Assembly: GCF_005877885.1 (NCBI RefSeq) | Contig: NZ_VCHY01000031.1 | Span: forward strand, 1-50,797 | Source: Labilibacter sediminis | Lineage (GTDB): Bacteria > Bacteroidota > Bacteroidia > Bacteroidales > Marinilabiliaceae | Reading direction: 5' to 3' | Length of the DNA stretch: 50,797 bases | Shown here: piece by piece, positions 15,800-50,797 of the stretch | How the letters are laid out: each line of letters begins with the position of its first letter | Numbering within the stretch: position 1 is the first letter of the stretch | Notes under the pieces: generated by a model | Seen by the model: the letters and a program-made list of their open reading frames with translations, nothing else | Databases searched by the model: none | What the model was told of the DNA's origin: nothing | Position numbers and translations under genes: made by a program

Positions 15800-15837
15800 G
15801 ATCACTTTTTCTCCCGAAAGCTTAATGAAACATATGG

Positions 15838-16008
15838 TTTATGGCAGGTTTTCCGACTTTCTTTATGAGCACCTTCCCATTACAAAATTGCAACAGTGGT
15901 ATAAAACTCACCTGTTTAAAGGCAGACTACGGCTGCGGGTACAGTTCCTGAATTCCAAAACGTTGGTTACAGGATTCCCTTTATTGATGCACAACGCATC
16001 ACCACAAA
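15838..16008 (-). promoter_or_regulatory. Cobalamin (adenosylcobalamin) riboswitch
   Basis: Read on the minus strand, the leader contains the ordered cobalamin-riboswitch core: AAAGGGAATCCTG, ATTCAGGAACTGTACCCGC, AGCCGTAGTCTGCC, CCACTG, GGGAAGGTGCTC, and the B12 box near 15843-15860 (AAGTCGGAAAACCTGCC). The upstream tgatgc/gcatca pair can form an early helix. The element sits about 40 nt before the first gene of the btuF-C-D-like operon and should repress it when cobalamin is plentiful. Confidence 0.93.
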
Positions 16009-16014
16009 CTTGTG

Positions 16015-16022
16015 CAAAAGTA
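16015..16022 (-). promoter_or_regulatory. -7 element of the riboswitch transcript
   Basis: The minus strand reads TACTTTTG, a perfect TAnnTTTG box. It places the transcript start near 16008, exactly at the 5' edge of the riboswitch. No clear -33 TTTG is seen. Confidence 0.5.
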
Positions 16023-34520: not shown

Positions 34521-34554
34521 GGTTACATCTTAATACCACCTGTATACTAACCAC

Positions 34555-34729
34555 TTAACCCGCTTTATGCATTAGAAAATCTATTACACATTGAAATCAC
34601 TTCAAAACAAGACACTTTGTTTCTTCACTTCAACTCACCAGAACGATGCTATGCCTCGTCTCAGTAAAGCCTTGTTTTATCGTGCTTTCAATGTTCATGA
34701 CGAAGTTCTAATACATAATGCGAGCTTAA
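34555..34729 (+). repeat. 175-bp TTAA-flanked inverted-end element, copy A
   Basis: The element begins TTAACCCGCTTTATGCATTAG and ends CTAATACATAATGCGAGCTTAA, so its ends are imperfect inverted repeats bounded by TTAA. A second copy in the same orientation lies at 38618-39132 (interrupted). Apart from the insertion, the copies differ at only a few bases. There is no credible coding frame inside, so it behaves like a non-autonomous mobile element (MITE). The flanking gene-free stretches on either side (34251-34554 and 34730-34851) hold only a terminator hairpin. Confidence 0.8.
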
Positions 34730-38322: not shown

Positions 38323-38617
38323 CCTGAATAATTTAGGTAATCTATGCAAAGCTCTGATGAAGTAAAACTTTAGATTACAGAAATAACATAACTATTATTC
38401 GCATAAGCAACTGATACATCTGCCAGAACATTCTTACAATTATACTCATTCTAAAAGGAAATAGATTCATGAAATCTTATAAAAATAAGATCATCTCCTT
38501 ATAAAAAAGAAGTGTATCTAAATAAATACTAAACCGTACCCTTTGGTTCAATTCGTGTCAGAAAAAGATTGTAGTTAAAAGAAAATATAAAAACGTATCT
38601 GCCAAACCGTTGGCTAT
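38323..38617. other. AT-rich upstream region of the BNR gene
   Basis: About 295 bp between the BNR gene start and the repeat element. It must hold the BNR gene promoter, but no box matches the consensus well. A small tcttat/ataaga hairpin near 38474 is the only local structure noted. Confidence 0.4.
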
Positions 38618-39132
38618 TTAACCCGCTTTATCAATGTCGTTTAGTTAAGAAATTCATTTCATGAATTTCTTAAGAATGGGACTTTGTCCCATACCCTACT
38701 TCCTTTTTGTCATTGCCACAAAAAGGAAGCAAAAAAGTCTAGTCGAGGAGAATGCCAACCCGCTCTTCCCGATTATTTATAATTCTATAGAAGCAAGTGT
38801 TCTTTCAAACACAAGGACAAGCCCCTTCTATGAATTATATAACAATCGGAAATACACTGCCTCCATTGGCCTTCAACTCCTCGACGGGCCTGCGCGCCCC
38901 TTTACTATCGTGAGTTAAAATGTTTTAAACAGCTATGATATCCTTAACTAAACGACATTGCCCGCTTTATGCATTAGAAAATCTATTACACATTGAAATC
39001 ACTTCAAAACAAGACACTTTGTTGCTTCACTTCAACTCACCAGAACGATGCTATGCCTCATTTCAGTAAAGCCTTGTTTTATCGTGCTTTCAATGTTCAT
39101 GACGAAGTTCTAATACGATAATGCGGGTTTAA
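38618..39132 (+). repeat. 175-bp TTAA-flanked element, copy B, split by an insertion
   Basis: The left piece (38618-38631, ttaacccgctttat) and the right piece (38961-39132) together match copy A at 34555-34729. The last TTAA (39129-39132) includes the stop codon of the PD40-protein gene on the minus strand. The inserted 329-bp element and a duplicated 10-mer account for the extra 339 bp. Confidence 0.85.
38632..38960. mobile_element. 329-bp MITE-like element with 18-bp TIRs and a 10-bp target duplication
   Basis: The ends are perfect inverted repeats: CAATGTCGTTTAGTTAAG (38632-38649) and CTTAACTAAACGACATTG (38943-38960). The 10-mer CCCGCTTTAT is present directly on both sides (38622-38631 and 38961-38970) but only once in the uninterrupted copy A, so it is a target-site duplication. 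No transposase is encoded. The interior forms successive hairpins: 13-bp arms at 38645-38673, 7-bp at 38676-38692, 12-bp at 38699-38729, and a long-range gtcgaggag/ctcctcgac pair (38742-38750 / 38877-38885). It is probably mobilised by a transposase elsewhere. Confidence 0.88.
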
Positions 39133-40655
39133 TATTCTACTAACACAATATTTATACGATAACCTTGGTCATCCGGAGTTGCCAAAGTTTTTAAGTCTTT
39201 TTTGAACAGATTAAAATATCTCTTTTTAACCTGTAATATTAAGTTATTATTTGATTTAAGATAAAAACTAAATACTCCCTGTTCATTTGTTTCTGTTGAT
39301 GAAATTAATTTTGATCCATCATACACCTTCACCAAAGCACTATTTACCGGATCATTTGAATTAGATGATACAATAACTCCCTCATAACGAATAAAATTCA
39401 GCTCCCTTTTTTGTTGAAATGCATAAATATCATCTTCTCCTATTCCTCCCTCCCTATTGGAACAAAAATAGCCTGAAAGGCCTTCTTCCTCCAGGATTAA
39501 TCCAAAATCATCCGATGAAGTATTCAGAGGGTAGCCCATATTAAAGGATTGTGAGAAACCATCTCCTTCGGGCATCGAAAAATACACATCTAAACCTCCT
39601 ATACCACCATACTTGTCCGAAGAAAAATATAGTTTGCCATCCCTATCTACAAAAGGAAATAATTCATTTTCTTCTGTATTTATATTTGGACCCAGATTTT
39701 GAGGCATACTTAAAAAACCATTTTTATATTCCGAATAGTAGATATCATAGCCCCCATAACCTCCCTCTTTATCAGACACAAAAAACAAGCGCATATCATC
39801 TTCTGTTAAAAAAGCATGCATATACGAAAAGTCCATTTGTCGTAAAGGGATTGCTGATGATTTACTTTTCCATTTACCATTAGCTTTATGGCTTACAAAA
39901 ATATTTAAATACGATTTATCTTTTGCTGAACTCTTAATATTGCGAGTGGTAAAAGCTATTGTTTTATCCTGATTAAATGCTATTGGACCGTCGTTGTACT
40001 TTGAAGATAATTCCTGACTAAAAAATTCAGGTTCAGACAATGATATTAGCTCATTTCTTTTCGAAGCATATAATTTATAAAATCGGCTTCCATCTCTAAT
40101 ATCCTCTCTTTTTATCATTTGAATACTTGTTCGGTTTGATGAAAATACCAATTGATCGTTATAAATAACCGGTGCAAACTCCGAATATTCAGTATTAATA
40201 GATAAAGGGTGAATGATATAATTGGATGAATCATTTTTAAGGGAAAGTATTAGTTCCTCAAGTGAACCCTCAATGGTCTTATTATTTCCCGACATTTTGT
40301 AATACTCATTTAAATATTGTTCCGCCTCCATATATCTCTCTTTTTTCCTTAACTCATGAGACAGCATATAATAAGTAGCATAATTAACATCAGGGTATTC
40401 TGTTGCCTTCAAATACCAGTCTATGGCATTTTCTGTTTCACCCAATAGCCTGTAACAATCTCCAATTTTATGTGTTACATAGTATAAAGCTACACTTTCA
40501 TCCCTTATATTATTGTATAAACGAAGTGCTTTTTTATAATTAAAACTGTCGAAATATTCATCTGCTTTTTTTAATTCTTTTGGCTGAGCATAAAGCTGTA
40601 TGGAAATAGCAGATACTTTAAATAAAATGAGAAATATGAGTAAATAAAGCTTCAT
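39129..40655 (-). CDS. TPR-PD40 protein of the PorP/SprF operon, lacking an OmpA domain
   Basis: A 508-residue exported protein with a signal peptide (about 1-24). TPR-like repeats (about 25-125) come first, then WD40-like PD40 beta-propeller blades (EFAPVIYNDQLVFSSNRT; MRLFFVSDKEGGYGGYDIYY; GKLYFSSDKYGGIGGLDVYF; GYFCSNREGGIGEDDIYAF). A carboxypeptidase-regulatory-like domain ends the protein (YEGVIVSSNSNDPVNSALVK). Relatives next to PorP/SprF genes usually continue into an OmpA peptidoglycan-binding domain, which is absent here. The stop lies in the TTAA at the edge of repeat copy B. It starts 51 bp after the PorP/SprF gene and is likely the last gene of this T9SS-linked operon. Confidence 0.85.
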   Translation of the reverse strand: MKLYLLIFLILFKVSAISIQLYAQPKELKKADEYFDSFNYKKALRLYNNIRDESVALYYVTHKIGDCYRLLGETENAIDWYLKATEYPDVNYATYYMLSHELRKKERYMEAEQYLNEYYKMSGNNKTIEGSLEELILSLKNDSSNYIIHPLSINTEYSEFAPVIYNDQLVFSSNRTSIQMIKREDIRDGSRFYKLYASKRNELISLSEPEFFSQELSSKYNDGPIAFNQDKTIAFTTRNIKSSAKDKSYLNIFVSHKANGKWKSKSSAIPLRQMDFSYMHAFLTEDDMRLFFVSDKEGGYGGYDIYYSEYKNGFLSMPQNLGPNINTEENELFPFVDRDGKLYFSSDKYGGIGGLDVYFSMPEGDGFSQSFNMGYPLNTSSDDFGLILEEEGLSGYFCSNREGGIGEDDIYAFQQKRELNFIRYEGVIVSSNSNDPVNSALVKVYDGSKLISSTETNEQGVFSFYLKSNNNLILQVKKRYFNLFKKDLKTLATPDDQGYRINIVLVEY

Positions 40656-41658: not shown

Positions 41659-44600
41659 TTATCGTTTTATATAAACCATTCCTTTTATTACTTTTCTTGA
41701 GTTACCCAGTTTTACAATATAAAAATAGGTACCCTGAGGCAATTCCCCGGATCCAATAGCGGAGTTGGCTGATTTCCCATCCCATTTATTGTCGTAATTT
41801 TTCATATGAAATACCTCTCCACCCCATCTGTTATAAATATAGATTTCATTGTTCTCATAATCACTGATTCCTGGTATGACAAAGAAATCATTTACGCCAT
41901 CTCCATTTGGCGAAAACGTATCAGGGGCATCAATTCGCTCTCCACAATCATCAAAAACATCTCTGTAATTCGGAATTCCATCATTGTCACAATCATCACT
42001 TCCATCTTCATCATCCGACAAACCATCTTCATCACTATCTAAATCCCTATAATCCGGGATACCATCATCATCTGTATCAAGTAGGTCTTGCAAACAAACT
42101 TCCTGAATGCCACCTTCATCTATATCTCTTATGCCATCATTATCTGAATCATCATCAAGGTAGTCGGGCCATTCATCTCCATCGGTATTGGTTTCTTTCC
42201 CTTCAATAAAATCTGCAATATTATCACTATCTGCGTCAGAGACTCCAATAACAAATACAACCTTTGCATGTCCACAACTGCCAAATTCATCACATCCCTG
42301 ATAAGTAAATTCCTCCTCTATACAAAAATCACCAAAGACAGAGGCATAATTAAATTGGCCGTTAGCTACTTCTGTCAAATCCCCAATCAGGTTATGATCT
42401 GCATCAAACAACACCGTGATCTCATCCCCGTTAACATCAACATCGTTTGTCAGTACATTGAAGTCTATGGATTCTCCATCCGTTAAATAAATGGTATCAT
42501 TTATACAATCCGGAGCTAAATTCTCTATCAACTCAGTCACAGTTATCGTAACCGTTGCATTATCACATGCTCCGTTTGTATCACAAATACTGTATATAAA
42601 AGAATCGTTACCTGAAAAATCTTCATCAGAAGTATAGGTGATTTCTCCCGTTAAGGATTCAACAATAACATTTCCATTTTGCGGACCAGACACTATACTC
42701 ACAGACGTCACATCCAGGTTTCCATCAATATCACTATCGTTTTCTACAACAGCAATATTGACTGACATTGACTGTTCGGTTTGAGCACTATCATCCATGG
42801 CATTTGGTGTATCATTTTGCGGAATTACAGTAATTTCCACCATAGCTGAATCACATCCTCCGCCTCCATCACACAGTTCATATTCGAAGGAATCGTTACC
42901 ATTGAAATTAGCATCAGGTGTATAGATACATTCTTTTGTGTTTTCATCTATTGAAACACTTCCATTGAGCGGTTGACTTGAAATAGAAACTGCAAAAGCT
43001 TCAATATCCGAATCTATATCCGAATCATTAGCCAATACGTTAATAGCTATTGATTCATCCTCTAACACTTCTGCTTCATCAGCCACAGCAACAGGTATGT
43101 CATTTACCGGGGTAATTGTTATCTCAACATTGGCCTGATCACTATACCCCAACTCATCTGATATGCGATAAATAAGCCTGTCTGTGCCATTATAATTTGC
43201 AAACGGTGTATAGTTTAACTCTCCGTTAGAGGTATCAATTGTGGCTTCTCCGTTTAATGGATTACTCACAATGATTAAAGTAGTTAGATCAATATTATTC
43301 TGAGGATCGGTATCATTGGTTATGATATTATAAACAACTGACTCATCTTCATTTAAAACAATTTCATCATCCATTGCATTAGGAGCCTCATTTGTAACAT
43401 TAATCGTTACTGAAGAAATATTACTTTCGGCACCATCGGTATCATAAAACCTAAAGTTAAATGAATCTTCTCCCGTAAAACCATCATTCGGTAAATAAGT
43501 AATAGTATAATTTTCAAAATCAGTAGTTAATGTTCCAAACTCTGGTGAGCTGATATTATCAAATGTGTTTAAATCAATATTCCCATCTACATCACTCACC
43601 ATACTTGCCATTTCTATTTCAATAGCCACATTTTCCGGTGTCGACTGATTGATATTAGTGGTTACCGGAGCATCATTTATAGCAAGAACCTCTATTTCCA
43701 GATTATAAATTTTACTTCTGTCATTTTCATCAGACTGGTCACTCACATAAATAGGCACATTCAGACCACCATAAAAATTAGGATCAGGAATAATGGTTGT
43801 TTCACTAACTGAATAGTTCAAACCTGGCAATACTACCAAAATAAAATCATCTGGATAAATATTATCCGGATCTATAATGGTAAGATCAGTAATATCAACA
43901 ACTAAAGAAACATCCTCATCTGTTGTTAATATGGATTGATCACTGATAACAGGTTTATCATTTACCGAAACAACTTCAATGGTAAAAATAAAAACTTCAC
44001 TTACATTATTCTCTGCACCCTGATCATCAACAATAATATTCACCAATAAATCACCATTAAAATGAGGATCCGGACTTACAGTATTACCTGTTATTGAATA
44101 ATTATCTCCTTCCAAGACTGTCAGCACAAAATCATTGGGGTAATTATTATCCACATCCGTAACACTCAAATGGTTTAGAGTGATGGTTTCACTTTCATCT
44201 TCTAAAATACTTATAAGCTGTTGCGAATTAATAACAGGCTGGTCGTTTACTGAATTAATCGTGTAAAAAACAATAGCAGAAGCACAATATCCATCCTGAT
44301 CACACACCTCATACCTAATCTGATCTTTTCCATAGAAATCTTGATTTGGCGTATATCTAATATCTCCATCAGTCAAAACTACTGCTGAACCATTCACTGG
44401 TTCTGAAATAATTTTCAAGGTACGACTATCAATATTATTCTGAGGATCGCTGTCATTTGTAAGAACATTAAAAATACTCACTGCATCCTCATCAAGTGCT
44501 ACAACATCCTCATTTGCCGTTGGAGCTTCATTGGATACAGTAATGGTTACAACTGCAGAATCACAAAACTCATTGTCACATACCTTATACTCAAACTCAT

Positions 44601-47600
44601 CTGAACCTGAAAAAGAAGAATTTGGTATATATGTAACCTCTCCATTTTCCGCATCAACACTTGTTGCTCCATGACTTACATCTGATAAAATATGCAATGT
44701 GGATATATCCAGATTACCATCAACATCTGTTACATGACTGTTTATATCAATAACTACCTGTTGGTTTTCTGCGGTTGTTATCGAAAAATCCTCAGCCTGA
44801 GGCGCATCATTTACCGACGTCACTAAGACTTCGAACCTAAAGCGATTACTCTCGTTATTTATCGATTCTCCATCGGAAACTGAGGCTTCTACAGATAAGG
44901 TCCCGAAATAATTCAAGGCTGGTACAATACTGCTATTTTCAACTGTATAATTTTCTCCACTTTGTAAAATAAGTGTATAATCTTCCAGTGTATTATCCAC
45001 ATCAGTAATAATAAAATCTGACACATTAATAACCAATGCTACATCTTCTTCTGTATTTAAAGGAGGTTCGGATAAACCAGTAATAATTGGTGCATCATTA
45101 ATTGCATTTACAGTAACACTTAGGTTATAAATATTACTTGATGAATTTTGTGAAGCGATATCATTTACTATTACCGGAACTGTTAACAGTCCATTAAAAT
45201 TTTCATCCGGGGTTATCGTTTGTTCACCTACAGTGTAATTTGTTCCATCTTGTATCGACAAACTGTGTTCACTTGGATAATCGTTATCAATATCGGTAAC
45301 AACTAATGAAGATAAGGATATTACAACCGGAACATCTTCATCTGTTGAGATTGGCAATTGATTGGTAATAATCGGTGCATCATTCACCGGATTAACCGTA
45401 AACACCACCTCATCTTCATCTGTAAGTGTTCCATCATTGGCTATAAACCGAATTGAGTCTGTTCCAAACCAATTAATATCAGGAACCTCAACTGCAGCCA
45501 ATCGGGTAACCGGATTTATTGTTACTTCTAACTCAGATACACCCATGACTGTCCATGTTATCTCTTCATCACTATGATCGGCATCCGATACGTATATATT
45601 TAAATCGATGCTGTCAAACGAACCACCTTCATCAATAGTTTGATTTGGAATATCTATGACTACAGGAGGATCGTTATCATTTACCACCATCACCACTAAA
45701 TTCCACTGATTACTCGATGCTCCATTCGGATCTCTAACCGAAACAGGTACTATAATTTCTCCTACAACATTTTCATTTGGTGTAATACTACTATTTACTA
45801 CCGAATAATTACTTCCTGCGGAAACCGTAAGCGTAAAACCAGTTGGGTAACTATTATCTACATCAGTTACAATCAAGTCTGTTAGAGCAATTGTTCTTAA
45901 GGTTTCTTCTGCAACTGAAACCGGATATTGACCTGTAATTACAGGGGCGTCATTAACCGGATTTATAGATAAAGTGACTGGAAACACATCACTTTCTGCA
46001 TTCTCCAATTCACCATCTGATACCACAACATTAACTGTGATATCATCAGTTATATTTAAAGCCGGCGTTACAATGTTTCCTGAATGAGAATAATTAACAC
46101 CATCTTGCACTATTAAGGTATGAGATGATGGTGTGATTGTATTATCTACATCCGTAAAAATTATGTCATTTATTGTAAGTTCGATAGCTGTTTCTTCGTT
46201 AGTTGACAATAAATTTTGACCTGTAATTACAGGTGAATCATTAACCGGATTAATAGAAACCGACAAACCAAATGGTGCACTTAAATTATTTTCTGATTCT
46301 CCATCTGAAACAACAACATTAACTGTAATTGGTATAGTTACATCAACATTTGGAGTAATGATGTTACCTGAATAAGTATAACCAACTCCATCGGTTACAA
46401 TTACAGAGTGCGAACCAGCCGTAATATTATTATCCACATCAGTAAATATGATATCATCGACTGTAATTTCTAATGCTGTTTCTTCATCTGTCGATAATGA
46501 ATTCTGCCCCGTGATAACCGGTGCATCATTAATACTATTGACCAAAACCGTTAAACCATAAGGTAAACTCTCATCATTCTCTGGTTCTCCATCAGAAATA
46601 ATGGCATTAACGGTAATAGAGCCTATAACGTCTGCATTCGGCGTAATATTATTACCCACATGCGTATAACCTACTCCATCCTGTATCACCAACGAGTGTT
46701 CGTCCGGGAAGTTATTATCAACATCTGTTGCTGTAATACTTGCTATAGAAATGGTCAATTCAGTTTCTTCATCTGTTGATAAAGAACTTTGACCCGTAAT
46801 AACAGGTGAATCATTAACCGGATTAACTGTTACACTAAGATTATAAGTGTTACTTAATGCATTTACCGAACCTAAATCACTAACAGTTACGGGAACAGTT
46901 AAAACTCCATTAAAATCCCGAACCGGGGTGATGGTTTGATTGTTAAATGTATAGTTTTCACCACTCAGTACAGACAATGTGTGTTCATCAGGATAAGTAT
47001 TATCCACATCTTCAACAATCAATGCACCTAATGGTATCGTAAGCGCTTCATCTTCATTGGTAGAAACAGGATTTTGGCTACTAATAACAGGAGCGTCATT
47101 TATAGCATTCACAGTAAATACTGCCTGATCCTCATCAGAAAGAGTTCCGTCACTAGCTATAAAAGATATAATCTCCGATCCAAACCAATTCTCATTTGGG
47201 GTACTTACCTGAGCCTCCTTGGATTCATTATCTATAACAACAACAAGTTCTATCTGCCCAAAAGTCGTCCATGTAATTTGATCATCACTATGGTCTGCAT
47301 CACTTACAAACAGATTTAAGTCGATGGTTGAAAAAGCACCACCTTCATCAATTATTTGATTAGGTATATCACTGACCACAGGAGGATCATTATCATTAAC
47401 TACAGAAACTATCAGATTCCAGACATTGCTTTCCGCTCCGTGAGGATCCAATACTGTCACCGGAACAACTATATCTCCAACTATATTTTCATTAGGAGTA
47501 ATACTATTGCCACTAACGGAATAGTTACTTCCTGTTGAGACCGAGATGGTAAAACCCGTTGGATATGTATCATCTACATCTGTTACAACCAAATCATTCA

Positions 47601-50600
47601 CGGTAATTGTTCTTAATGATTCTTCAGCTACTGACACTGCGTTTTGACCTGTTATAACAGGAGCATCATTTACTGGATTAACTATTACCTTTAATTGAAA
47701 TACTTCACTTGAAGCATTAACTGATTGTCCATCTGAAACAATGGCGTTAACAGATATTTCTCCATACAAATTTAAAATTGGTGTAATAGTATTCCCTATG
47801 TAAGTATAACCCACTCCACCCTGAATAATAAGGCTATGATCTTCAGGGAAAGTATTGTCTACATCTGTAACTACCAGATCACTTATAGCTATAGTCAAAG
47901 GAGTTTCTTCATCCGTAGATAATAGCTCCTGACCTGTAATCACAGGATTATCATTTACCGGAATCACAGATACTAACAATGCATAAACTTCACTTCCAGA
48001 ATTTTCTAACTGTCCGTCAGATACAAGTACATTTACGCTTATATTTCCATTAATATCTACATTGGGGATAATCGTGTTTCCAACATGTGCATAATTTGTT
48101 CCATCCTGAACAATTAGAATATGGTCATCCGGGAAACTATTATCGATATCGAATACCGTTAAATCAGTTATAACAATGGTCAATTCTGTTTCTTCATCTG
48201 TAGATAATAATCTTTGTCCAGTTATCACCGGAGCATCATTAATCTCTGTCACCGTGAAGGTCGCCTGGTCGGTGACTTCCAATCCGCCCTCATCACGTGC
48301 CCTGAAAGTGATGGTCTCGCTGCCGTTCCAGTTTTCATCCTGTGGTGTGATGGTGGCCACCCTGTCGGTGATCACTACCGAGATATTCACAGGCGTCTCA
48401 TCGATGCTCCAAATCATATTGGCATCCAATGTCTCTACATCATCAATATAGTCATCAAGGGTAATGGTAGTAAAACTTCCGCCCTCAGCAATACTTTGAT
48501 TGGGGATATCGGAGATCACCGGAAGATCATTTACTGCGGTCACCGTGAAAGTAGCCTGGTCGGTGACTTCTAATCCTCCCTCGTCACGGGCCATAAAGGT
48601 GATGGTCTCACTACCGTTCCAGTTTTCATCCAGTGGCGTGATTGTAGCCACGCGATCTGTAATCACGACAGAAATATTCACAGGCGTCTCATCGATGCTC
48701 CAGATCATAGCCGCATCGGCCGTTTCTACATCATCGATATAATCATCAAGGGCAATGGTAGTAAAACTTCCGCCCTCAGCAATACTTTGATTGGGGATAT
48801 CGGATATGACAGGTAAATCATTTTCTGCGGTCACCGTAAAGGTCGCCTGATCGGTCACTTCCAATCCGCCTTCATCACGGGCCCTGAAAGTAATGGTTTC
48901 ACTGCCGTTCCAGTTCTCATCCAATGGCGTGATGGTTGCCACCCTGTCGGTGATCACTACCGAAATATTTACAGGAGTTTCATCGATGCTCCACACCATA
49001 TTGGCATCCAGCGTCTCCACATCATCGATATAATCATCCAGGGCTATCGTGGCAAAACTTCCGCCCTCGGCGATCGTTTGGTTGGGGATATCTGAGATCA
49101 CTGGCAGGTCATTTACTGCAGTCACCGTGAAGGTCGCCTGGTTGGTGACTTCCAATCCGCCCTCATCACGTGCCCTAAAGGTAATGGTCTCGCTGCCGTT
49201 CCAATTTTCATCCAAAGGTGTAATGGTGGCCACCCTGTCGGTAATCACTACCGAGATATTTACAGGGGTTTCATCGACGCTCCAAATTATATTGGCATCC
49301 AGCGTCTCCACATCATCGATATAATCATCCAATGCAATAGTCGCAAAACTGCCACCCTCGGCGATCGTTTGGTTAGGGATATCTGAGATGACAGGTAAAT
49401 CATTTTCTGGAGTCACGGTAAATGTGGCCTGATCAGTCACTTCCAAGCCGCCTTCGTCCTGCGCCCTAAAGGTAATGGTCTCGCTGCCATTCCAGTTTTC
49501 ATCCAGTGGGGTGATCGTAGCCACCCTGTCGGTGATCACTACCGAGATATTGACAGGCGTTTCATCTATACTCCAGATTATATTGGCATCCAATGTCTCT
49601 ACATCATCAATATAATCATCCAGGGCTATCGTGGCAAAGCTTCCGCCCTCGGCAACAGTTTGGTTAGGGATATCGGAGATCACTGGCAGGTCATTTACTG
49701 CAGTCATCGTGAAGGTAGCCTGGTCGGTGACTTCAAGACCGCCTTCATCTCTAGCTCTAAAGGTGATGGTCTCGCTGCCGTTCCAGTTTTCATCCAATGG
49801 GGTGATGGTAGCCACCCTGTCGGTGATCACTACCGAGATATTCACAGGCGTCTCATCGATGCTCCAGATCATAGCCGCATCGGCCGTTTCTACATCATCG
49901 ATATAATCATCAAGGGCAATGGTAGTAAAACTTCCGCCCTCAGCAATACTTTGATTGGGGATATCGGATATGACAGGTAAATCATTTTCTGCGGTCACCG
50001 TAAAGGTCGCCTGATCGGTCACTTCCAATCCGCCTTCATCACGGGCCCTGAAAGTAATGGTTTCACTGCCGTTCCAGTTCTCATCCAATGGCGTGATGGT
50101 TGCCACCCTGTCGGTGATCACTACCGAAATATTTACAGGAGTTTCATCGATGCTCCACACCATATTGGCATCCAGCGTCTCCACATCATCGATATAATCA
50201 TCCAGGGCTATCGTGGCAAAACTTCCGCCCTCGGCGATCGTTTGGTTAGGGATATCGGAGATCACCGGAAGATCATTTACTGCGGTCACCGTGAAAGTAG
50301 CCTGGTCGGTGACTTCCAAGCCGCCTTCATCTCGGGCCCTAAAGGTGATGGTCTCGCTACCGTTCCAATTCTCATCCAATGGGGCGATGGTAGCCACCCT
50401 GTCGGTGATCACTACAGAGATATTCACAGGCGTCTCATCGATGCTCCAGATCATATTGGCATCCAATGTCTCTACATCATCGATATAATCATCCAGGGAT
50501 ATCGTGGCAAAACTTCCGCCCTCGGCAACAGTTTGGTTAGGGATATCTGAGATGACAGGTAAATCATTTTCTGCAGTCACGGTAAATGTGGCCTGGTCGG

Positions 50601-50797
50601 TGACTTCCAAACCGCCCTCGTCCTGCGCCCTGAAAGTGATGGTCTCGCTACCGTTCCAGTTTTCATCCAGTGCGGTGATCGTAGCCACTCTGTCTGTAAT
50701 CACGACAGAGATATTCACCGGCGTCTCATCGATGCTCCAGATCATATTGGCATCCAGCGTCTCCACATCATCGATATAGTCATCCAAGGCAATAGTA
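41659..50797 (-). CDS. Giant SprB-like adhesin with tandem repeats and a type B T9SS tail (5' end outside window)
   Basis: At least 3,045 residues are visible. The frame stays open to the window edge, so the start and signal peptide are missing. From the N-terminal side there are nine 97-residue repeats (the first partial) with NDLPVISDIPNQ, AEGGSF, DDYIDDVE, WSIDETPVN and FRARDEGGLEV. About a dozen divergent units follow with NDAPVITGQ...STDEET...DVDN...P. Next are Big_9/cadherin-like units (ILTNDxDxxxNIDxxT; YTPxxxFxGxDxFxY) and a calcium-binding TSP3-like Asp-rich segment (about 41930-42240). A T9SS type B domain ends the protein (DTFSPNGDGVNDFFVIPG; IYNRWGGEVF). It should be a surface filament for adhesion or gliding. 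Confidence 0.93.
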   Translation of the reverse strand, partial: TIALDDYIDDVETLDANMIWSIDETPVNISVVITDRVATITALDENWNGSETITFRAQDEGGLEVTDQATFTVTAENDLPVISDIPNQTVAEGGSFATISLDDYIDDVETLDANMIWSIDETPVNISVVITDRVATIAPLDENWNGSETITFRARDEGGLEVTDQATFTVTAVNDLPVISDIPNQTIAEGGSFATIALDDYIDDVETLDANMVWSIDETPVNISVVITDRVATITPLDENWNGSETITFRARDEGGLEVTDQATFTVTAENDLPVISDIPNQSIAEGGSFTTIALDDYIDDVETADAAMIWSIDETPVNISVVITDRVATITPLDENWNGSETITFRARDEGGLEVTDQATFTMTAVNDLPVISDIPNQTVAEGGSFATIALDDYIDDVETLDANIIWSIDETPVNISVVITDRVATITPLDENWNGSETITFRAQDEGGLEVTDQATFTVTPENDLPVISDIPNQTIAEGGSFATIALDDYIDDVETLDANIIWSVDETPVNISVVITDRVATITPLDENWNGSETITFRARDEGGLEVTNQATFTVTAVNDLPVISDIPNQTIAEGGSFATIALDDYIDDVETLDANMVWSIDETPVNISVVITDRVATITPLDENWNGSETITFRARDEGGLEVTDQATFTVTAENDLPVISDIPNQSIAEGGSFTTIALDDYIDDVETADAAMIWSIDETPVNISVVITDRVATITPLDENWNGSETITFMARDEGGLEVTDQATFTVTAVNDLPVISDIPNQSIAEGGSFTTITLDDYIDDVETLDANMIWSIDETPVNISVVITDRVATITPQDENWNGSETITFRARDEGGLEVTDQATFTVTEINDAPVITGQRLLSTDEETELTIVITDLTVFDIDNSFPDDHILIVQDGTNYAHVGNTIIPNVDINGNISVNVLVSDGQLENSGSEVYALLVSVIPVNDNPVITGQELLSTDEETPLTIAISDLVVTDVDNTFPEDHSLIIQGGVGYTYIGNTITPILNLYGEISVNAIVSDGQSVNASSEVFQLKVIVNPVNDAPVITGQNAVSVAEESLRTITVNDLVVTDVDDTYPTGFTISVSTGSNYSVSGNSITPNENIVGDIVVPVTVLDPHGAESNVWNLIVSVVNDNDPPVVSDIPNQIIDEGGAFSTIDLNLFVSDADHSDDQITWTTFGQIELVVVIDNESKEAQVSTPNENWFGSEIISFIASDGTLSDEDQAVFTVNAINDAPVISSQNPVSTNEDEALTIPLGALIVEDVDNTYPDEHTLSVLSGENYTFNNQTITPVRDFNGVLTVPVTVSDLGSVNALSNTYNLSVTVNPVNDSPVITGQSSLSTDEETELTISIASITATDVDNNFPDEHSLVIQDGVGYTHVGNNITPNADVIGSITVNAIISDGEPENDESLPYGLTVLVNSINDAPVITGQNSLSTDEETALEITVDDIIFTDVDNNITAGSHSVIVTDGVGYTYSGNIITPNVDVTIPITVNVVVSDGESENNLSAPFGLSVSINPVNDSPVITGQNLLSTNEETAIELTINDIIFTDVDNTITPSSHTLIVQDGVNYSHSGNIVTPALNITDDITVNVVVSDGELENAESDVFPVTLSINPVNDAPVITGQYPVSVAEETLRTIALTDLIVTDVDNSYPTGFTLTVSAGSNYSVVNSSITPNENVVGEIIVPVSVRDPNGASSNQWNLVVMVVNDNDPPVVIDIPNQTIDEGGSFDSIDLNIYVSDADHSDEEITWTVMGVSELEVTINPVTRLAAVEVPDINWFGTDSIRFIANDGTLTDEDEVVFTVNPVNDAPIITNQLPISTDEDVPVVISLSSLVVTDIDNDYPSEHSLSIQDGTNYTVGEQTITPDENFNGLLTVPVIVNDIASQNSSSNIYNLSVTVNAINDAPIITGLSEPPLNTEEDVALVINVSDFIITDVDNTLEDYTLILQSGENYTVENSSIVPALNYFGTLSVEASVSDGESINNESNRFRFEVLVTSVNDAPQAEDFSITTAENQQVVIDINSHVTDVDGNLDISTLHILSDVSHGATSVDAENGEVTYIPNSSFSGSDEFEYKVCDNEFCDSAVVTITVSNEAPTANEDVVALDEDAVSIFNVLTNDSDPQNNIDSRTLKIISEPVNGSAVVLTDGDIRYTPNQDFYGKDQIRYEVCDQDGYCASAIVFYTINSVNDQPVINSQQLISILEDESETITLNHLSVTDVDNNYPNDFVLTVLEGDNYSITGNTVSPDPHFNGDLLVNIIVDDQGAENNVSEVFIFTIEVVSVNDKPVISDQSILTTDEDVSLVVDITDLTIIDPDNIYPDDFILVVLPGLNYSVSETTIIPDPNFYGGLNVPIYVSDQSDENDRSKIYNLEIEVLAINDAPVTTNINQSTPENVAIEIEMASMVSDVDGNIDLNTFDNISSPEFGTLTTDFENYTITYLPNDGFTGEDSFNFRFYDTDGAESNISSVTINVTNEAPNAMDDEIVLNEDESVVYNIITNDTDPQNNIDLTTLIIVSNPLNGEATIDTSNGELNYTPFANYNGTDRLIYRISDELGYSDQANVEITITPVNDIPVAVADEAEVLEDESIAINVLANDSDIDSDIEAFAVSISSQPLNGSVSIDENTKECIYTPDANFNGNDSFEYELCDGGGGCDSAMVEITVIPQNDTPNAMDDSAQTEQSMSVNIAVVENDSDIDGNLDVTSVSIVSGPQNGNVIVESLTGEITYTSDEDFSGNDSFIYSICDTNGACDNATVTITVTELIENLAPDCINDTIYLTDGESIDFNVLTNDVDVNGDEITVLFDADHNLIGDLTEVANGQFNYASVFGDFCIEEEFTYQGCDEFGSCGHAKVVFVIGVSDADSDNIADFIEGKETNTDGDEWPDYLDDDSDNDGIRDIDEGGIQEVCLQDLLDTDDDGIPDYRDLDSDEDGLSDDEDGSDDCDNDGIPNYRDVFDDCGERIDAPDTFSPNGDGVNDFFVIPGISDYENNEIYIYNRWGGEVFHMKNYDNKWDGKSANSAIGSGELPQGTYFYIVKLGNSRKVIKGMVYIKR
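41930..42240 (-). other. TSP3-like calcium-binding Asp-rich segment of the adhesin
   Basis: The encoded sequence repeats DxDxDGIxD-type motifs (DSDNDGIRDIDE; DTDDDGIPDYRD; DSDEDGLSDDED; CDNDGIPNYRD). They resemble thrombospondin type 3 repeats, which bind Ca2+ and stiffen the segment between repeat stalk and sorting domain. Confidence 0.75.
48247..50797 (-). repeat. Tandem array of 291-bp (97-codon) units in the adhesin gene
   Basis: The unit length is exactly 291 bp, with nine copies up to the right edge, so the array continues beyond the window. Units differ at only a small fraction of positions (Thr/Ser/Val in NQTVAEGG or NQSIAEGG, LDAN or ADAA, RARDEGG or MARDEGG). The DNA is visibly richer in G+C than the divergent repeats to its left. 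Confidence 0.95.
48674..49083 (-). repeat. 410-bp block identical to 49838-50247 (four units away)
   Basis: Read base by base, 48674-49083 and 49838-50247 are identical, at an offset of 1164 bp (4 x 291). Adjacent units within the array differ from each other more than this. It marks a recent four-unit duplication or a gene-conversion tract. Confidence 0.85.

Follow-up and report, generated by a model that had tools for sequence, protein, structure and literature searches.

A 329-bp IS4-type MITE probably targets the terminal tip of a high-copy IS1380-type MITE in Labilibacter sediminis

A 329-bp MITE in the genome of Labilibacter sediminis lies inside a second, 166-bp MITE, and its insertions probably reflect a strict choice of target: this host element serves as a landing pad and is entered at the outer tip of its terminal inverted repeat. 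This reading, to which we give a probability of about 0.8, takes in what both elements are and that an IS4-type MITE targets the pad tip. Recognition of the tip by its sequence as opposed to its shape is left outside this figure, and the likelihoods attached below to the individual readings are not mutually exclusive. The reading is built on the observed ends, duplications, register, number of sites and recurrence in other taxa. Set against it are the failure to find the transposase in the assembly, the relatives that mostly lie elsewhere than at tips, and one copy (L007) whose duplication does not match. By the window we mean the whole stretch of DNA analysed, 50,797 nucleotides of contig NZ_VCHY01000031.1.

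Nested elements in the window

The features on which the analysis rests are as follows.

34554..34558, CTTAA, left 5-bp duplication of the uninterrupted 166-bp copy
34559..34724, + strand, uninterrupted 166-bp element, putative IS1380-type MITE (empty-site control)
34725..34729, CTTAA, right 5-bp duplication of the uninterrupted 166-bp copy
38617..38621, TTTAA, left 5-bp target duplication of the interrupted 166-bp-type element
38622..38631, + strand, outer copy of the 10-bp duplication CCCGCTTTAT, the terminal 10 bp of the host element
38632..38960, + strand, 329-bp element, putative IS4-type MITE
38632..38649, + strand, left 18-bp terminal inverted repeat CAATGTCGTTTAGTTAAG of the 329-bp MITE
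38943..38960, - strand, right 18-bp terminal inverted repeat of the 329-bp MITE
38961..39127, + strand, interrupted host, putative IS1380-type MITE, 167 bp, starting with the inner CCCGCTTTAT, its terminal repeat whole again
39128..39132, TTTAA, right 5-bp duplication of the interrupted host, containing the stop codon of the ORF 39129-40655 (- strand)

The original prediction described a 329-bp element with perfect 18-bp inverted ends, and its right end is indeed the exact reverse complement of CAATGTCGTTTAGTTAAG (18/18). The 10-bp CCCGCTTTAT, said to occur once in the intact copy and twice around the insertion, is found exactly three times in the window on both strands, at 34559, 38622 and 38961, where 0.08 would be expected from base composition. 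The last two directly flank the insertion and the first belongs to the uninterrupted copy, so that the nested insertion is confirmed as described. As single-stranded DNA the element folds from one end to the other (z-score -10.5, 100 shuffles) and its largest ORF, the only one of at least 80 aa in the ORF list, has 85 aa; on both counts it is MITE-like and non-autonomous, as had been proposed.

The second element was put at 175 bp. Its true length is 166 bp, the outer bases being its own 5-bp target duplication, CTTAA; the copy placed at 34555-34729 keeps its role as empty-site control, with the element itself confined to 34559-34724. The interrupted host has one extra base. The 10 bp that were duplicated coincide exactly with the first 10 bp of the host element, so that by its sequence the inner side recovers an entire terminal repeat and a 10-bp stub is left outside. 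The original prediction did not remark on this coincidence; it also missed the strict target specificity, the host's own duplication of 5 bp and its IS1380-type nature.

Because the right 5-bp duplication of the host holds the stop codon of the ORF at 39129-40655, this ORF is not broken. A matching gene is present in two other genomes, G050 (67%) and G048 (65%). The stretches of about 4 kb taken from each contain neither the 18-bp end (up to 3 mismatches) nor a match to the host element (E <= 0.01), and they gave no exact empty site between species.

Elsewhere in the window, an ORF of 3042 aa (41659-50787, - strand) extends almost to the contig end. It has several near-identical starting repeats of a little under 100 residues each, and a C-terminal tail that resembles gliding/secretion sorting tails.

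The landing pad

The limits of the 166-bp element, CCCGCTTTATGCATTAG...CTAATACATAATGCGGG, were read from the flanks of 30 copies fetched from the host genome; 40 of 206 candidates had been scored, these 30 were taken from among them, and 29 were readable. Perfect 5-bp duplications flank 27 of the 29 (TTAAA 16, TTTAA 7, TTGAA 2, CTTAA 1, ATAAA 1), and 26 of the 29 examined are free of any overlapping ORF of at least 100 aa. The 19-bp end AACCCGSWTTATGCATTAG has 328 matches in the host genome with up to 2 mismatches (reversed control, 0), which puts the number of copies, as an order of magnitude, at about 150.

Members of the IS1380 family generate a short direct repeat of 4-5 bp, and the 166-bp element agrees with this in its TTWAA-like repeat of 5 bp. 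A genome of the same genus (G046) contains a 1393-bp element (L135, 1404-2796) with an IS1380-family transposase (NF033539, 258 bits, cut-off 180) and a TTAAT duplication, whose ends CCTGCTCTATGCAATAG and CCCGAATTATGCATTAG are 3 and 1 mismatches from those of the 166-bp element. A decayed second case (L138), also with host-type ends, scores 67 bits, under the cut-off. Of the four IS1380 loci over the cut-off (L134-L137), only one has the host-type end pair and three are without it. From its ends and duplication, together with the one intact and the one decayed case, the 166-bp element is best read as an IS1380-type MITE.

Other identities were considered. REP and REPIN sequences are associated with the RAYT tyrosine transposase and are not known to make a target duplication, and the clear 5-bp duplications argue against them here. 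A structured RNA or group II intron was set aside after Rfam, at gathering thresholds over 8 sources, returned only a cobalamin riboswitch; one such riboswitch lies in the window at 15826-16021 (- strand, 66.2 bits). A locus in the host genome (L149, transposase P0001) was entertained as the autonomous form of the 166-bp element and dropped, as its transposase is of IS4_1 type and stands between two pieces of that element. This IS4_1-type element (L149 1169-2850, G000:C1 about 150167-151850) has GC-rich inverted ends (CCTGCCTGCCGGCTGGC...) and, lying between a left and a right piece, is a third element nested in the 166-bp family. Near position 2840 of the same locus a host-type end runs into ...ATTCCATCTAACTAA in place of the usual tip, a variant seen also in an Aquimarina genome (L232).

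Identity of the 329-bp MITE

In table 1 of PMC2266710, subgroup IS4 of the IS4 family is given ends of the form -AATR--------WTW---- and direct repeats of 10-13 bp. The end CAATGTCGTTTAGTTAAG fits this pattern with A2 A3 T4 G5 and T14 T15 A16, and the 10-bp duplication falls within the range. The 18-mer is present with up to one mismatch in 15 of the 71 family genomes, and the search among relatives that the original prediction had called for yielded three full-length IS elements whose ends are 1-4 mismatches from it: one of 1397 bp in G047 (L127, duplication CCCGTACGTT, 10/10), one of 1405 bp in G049 (L129, duplication AGGTATCACC, 10/10) and one of 1439 bp in G018 (L128, duplication 10/11). 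Their transposases (L109/L127, L128 and L129) score 157.6, 170.4 and 161.9 bits against NCBIfam IS4_1, with a cut-off of 115, and carry DDE and the Y-(2)-R-(3)-E-(6)-K (YREK) signature in the motifs YHMRWSVEEGFKSFK, YNLRWGVEESYKVDK and YHMRWGVEEQYKDMK. Thus, the earlier guess of an IS4-like element, made from the 10-bp duplication, is borne out by elements with similar ends and duplications of 10-11 bp. Since ends, element size and repeat length agree with the portion of PMC2266710 that tabulates the subgroups, the 329-bp element fits a MITE of the IS4 family, subgroup IS4, an assignment made from sequence features.

The transposase itself was found in the relatives' elements only; the MITE has none. 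No transposase of the L109 type was detected in the host assembly (E <= 1e-20; 0 of 6 candidates) and none of its ten DDE_Tnp_1 loci has the ends of the MITE within 4 mismatches, at least one of the ten (P0001) being the IS4_1-family transposase of another element. As the assembly is in 372 contigs, the absence of an autonomous partner is weak evidence, and the partner need not be in the same genome for the MITE to belong to the IS4 family. A scan of named genomes for the end returned at least 116 stretches; most of the 80 titles listed are Bacteroidota, with a few others (metagenome bins), and the terminal repeat is therefore widespread in the phylum.

G047 has a second copy of its IS4 element (L110, 501-3377), which is split by an apparent insertion with two ORFs, presumably an IS3-type element.

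Targeting of pad tips in the host genome

Searching the host genome with the 18-bp end, as had been suggested, gave 26 exact matches, 3 with one mismatch (29 in all within that limit) and 1 with two. One of these 30 scored ends is flush with a contig end and has no flank, and the end with two mismatches (C321) was counted apart as a non-target. Every one of the 28 available flanks (28/28) lies exactly at a tip of the 166-bp element, in the outer form TTWAACCCGSWTTAT in 15 cases and in the inner form CTAATGCATAAWSCGGG in 13, each running directly into the MITE, where a match required at least 13/15 or at least 15/17 bases; at the same thresholds the background is 29 + 2 of 99,960 window positions. 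A search for the outer junction found 15 in the host genome and none with the reversed control pattern, hence 15 insertions, of which 10 are complete (one of them lying flush with a contig end) and the other 5 are truncated at contig ends. Inner forms are seen at four more one-ended copies, which may be the other sides of the five truncated insertions. The left end of the MITE points outward in 8 insertions and the right end in 7 (orientation read by hand), and both ends of the pad are used.

The 10-bp duplications expected at other copies in the host genome are present: among the nine two-sided copies 6 are perfect, 2 match at 9/10 and L007 matches at 5/10. Four different sequences are represented among the six perfect duplications and nine among the 15 outer tips; the tip used in L019 reads CCCC in place of CCCG. 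Nine full copies of 329/330 bp are 96.7-99.7% identical. The seven longer hosts of the two-sided copies are 56-91% alike, with those of L001 and L007 cut at 170 bp, no far end being recognised, and that of L003 taken as 187 bp; the two other hosts are 39-bp mini-palindromes.

This variety bears on the possibility of a single ancestral insertion into the 166-bp element, after which the nested unit was multiplied through recombination or through the action of an IS1380 transposase. The mobility and abundance of the host element would suit such copying, as would the youth of the MITE copies. However, the 15 junctions show nine outer tips and the six perfect duplications four sequences, both orientations and both host ends occur, the longer carriers are far more diverse than the MITE copies within them, and two carriers are mini-hosts. 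The varied tips, duplications and carriers rule out that most of the insertions arose by amplifying a single nested unit, and we regard this history as very improbable. Even less credence can be given to random insertion followed by purifying selection that left only the copies in harmless pads. The pads are mostly intergenic, as the 26 of 29 free of an overlapping ORF attest, yet selection leaves the one exact base register unexplained, and, every available flank being at a tip, other intergenic DNA yielded no young copy. Targeted insertion thus remains the preferred reading.

Older relatives of the MITE in the host genome lie off the tips (C321 by score; L021, L026 and L027 by eye). A 398-bp form of the MITE has 69 extra bases after about position 77; it was seen in L010/L019 (G000:C155), L015, L016 and L018, as one whole copy and three similar-looking pieces at contig ends.

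Recurrence in other genomes

The outer junction, searched with up to 3 mismatches (control 0), is present in 3 of the 71 family genomes, with 15 cases in the host genome, 3 in G012 and 1 in G017, the latter two belonging to another genus. Two of the G012 junctions and that of G017 were seen as loci (L120, L279 and L084), and two further G012 ends (L097 and L271) have the inner form. Among the matches listed from the at least 116 named-genome stretches, 2 of 145 ends are at such tips. In an Aquimarina genome (L232) a 135-bp IS4-type MITE lies between CCTGCTTTAT and CCCGCTCTATGCGTTAGAACTTCG, the latter resembling the host element's own inner sequence, with a duplication that matches at 8/10 bases, and a Cyclobacteriaceae genome (L159) has the same junction on one side only. 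The junction was absent from 394 other genomes sampled from the class (0/394).

By score, 5 of 18 ends in G012 (one probably by chance) and 1 of 1 in G017 are at tips, compared with 0 of 43 in 11 other family genomes and 0 of 10 in G047; these counts are for fetched loci with duplicate flanks removed (13 of about 70 in G004, for example). G004 has no host-type ends, and the IS4 copies of G047 use other sites although that genome has 66 such ends. Six of the seven G047 sites viewed share an (A/C)CCG(T/C)(A/G)CG core, which in most of them lies within a palindrome similar to CCGTACGG, and one adjoins an ORF that encodes a group II intron maturase domain. Since the ends in other genomes are mostly elsewhere and the older relatives in the host genome are off the tips, tip specificity seems to belong to particular IS4 lineages and not to all such elements.

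Hairpin of the pad across genera

Twenty copies of the host element from ten other genomes were compared with that in the window. Nineteen have 166 bp and one has 165 bp, a constancy of length that is partly selected because the copies were picked by an end spacing near 166; spacings of 237 and 114 bp are also found between host-type ends. Perfect 5-bp repeats flank 16 of the 20, and 19 of the 20 show 74-93% ungapped identity to the window copy, the 165-bp copy not being comparable in that way. Some host-type copies in G047 form local clusters of several elements (G047:C3 3535858-3539809 and 2739791-2740894), and some sit inside another repeat with CCGCACTACCACCTCAAGTGC.

Folded singly, the host element forms a long hairpin (z-score for DNA -3.99). 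In an alignment of 25 sequences of the 166-bp element from three genera, 94.9% of the cells of this hairpin are paired, 17 of 38 pairs have changed on both sides (8.3 in shuffles) and 69 cells show both-side changes (20.2 in shuffles, 0 of 500 as high), figures that are inflated by kinship among the aligned copies. Further pair types are in slight excess (28 against 23.8 in shuffles; 5 of 500 as high) and slid versions of the alignment score far lower. Because relatedness inflates the values and arm-to-arm copying within a palindrome could mimic them without selection, the covariation shows an arm-to-arm correlation and not a function.

The hairpin raises the question of whether the transposase reads the shape of the DNA, the tip being the base of the stem of a hairpin or cruciform extruded from a palindromic repeat. 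The long fold with its covarying pairs, the palindromic 39-bp mini-hosts, the palindromes at the G047 sites and the CCCC tip of L019 would all be in keeping with this, while the constant register and the match of at least 13/15 or at least 15/17 at all 28 flanks speak for a reading of the sequence. We consider recognition of shape a tentative possibility.

Discussion

The preferred reading is that of an IS4-type MITE directed to the pad tip. The 329-bp MITE would be a non-autonomous derivative of an IS of the IS4 family, subgroup IS4, moved in trans. The cognate transposase would cut with a 10-bp stagger and strongly prefer TTWAA/CCCGSWTTAT/GCATTAG (slashes marking the limits of the 10 bp), which marks the outer tip of the high-copy IS1380-type MITE's terminal inverted repeat. 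As the stagger would span precisely the last 10 bp of the host element, repair of the target would restore a whole host end inside and leave a 10-bp stub outside. Each insertion would thereby stay in mostly intergenic, repetitive DNA and should leave the landing pad undestroyed. On this account a preference of the transposase would be the cause of the pattern and a safe haven its presumed benefit, and the host element may stay mobile after the insertion.

The two elements might further form a stable association, in which an IS4 lineage reads the exact terminus, including the TTWAA/CCCG boundary where the IS1380-type transposase would itself have to cut. Insertion would then rebuild the end of a pad that is selected for its structure and whose 166-bp form is common to three genera, both elements would stay mobile, and the pairings would recur across Bacteroidota. 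We hold this extension to be doubtful.

By analogy the system resembles two that are known. In Sinorhizobium meliloti all copies of ISRm22, an IS4-family element, that are given in table 2 of PMC1525189 (10/10) share one position within the REP, an extragenic palindromic repeat of high copy number. As described in that part of the paper ISRm22 is autonomous, inserts at the axis of the palindrome and makes a 6-bp repeat, whereas the 329-bp MITE uses the outer tip of a 5-bp-duplicating element and makes a 10-bp repeat equal to the tip. IS4321 and IS5075 likewise target terminal inverted repeats, those of the Tn21 transposon family, although with a DEDD transposase and, from what PMC11187229 reports on this point, a guide RNA; here we have a MITE of a DDE family and a duplication that restores the target end. 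BrickBuilt of Porphyromonas gingivalis, with a 236-type MITE inside it, is another MITE within a long-hairpin MITE in Bacteroidota, and differs in its IS5-type ends, the relevant sections of PMC4596501 describing one nesting and no exact register or genome-wide targeting.

The open-licence literature that we searched contained no paper treating IS231A, Tn4430 and target together, and none was found there on MITEs with IS1380 and Bacteroidetes. IS231A is said to insert into the ends of Tn4430, transposon ends being its hot spots. It would be alike in belonging to the IS4 family, in a duplication of about 10-12 bp and in this use of transposon ends, and differs in subgroup, host and target consensus; the 10-12 bp are the figure given in PMC2266710. 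The combination seen here, in which a MITE invades the terminal tip of a second MITE and the duplication is identical with that tip, was not met in the open-licence literature searched, and may have been published elsewhere; either MITE family may already have a name.

Exact boundaries are now available for two MITE families in Marinilabiliaceae, and the structural correlation across genera in one of them suits work on the persistence of hairpin elements. The insertion specificity of some elements of subgroup IS4 has been called spectacular in the section of PMC2266710 that deals with them. Here the terminal repeat of one kind of element is the only landing site observed in a genome for a DDE-family element of another kind. 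The case is natural and clean, hundreds of matching unoccupied tips serve as its controls, and the target-choice rule of IS4-subgroup transposases thereby becomes directly testable. For the MITE itself, the targeting looks like a way of spreading without breaking either genes or the landing pad.
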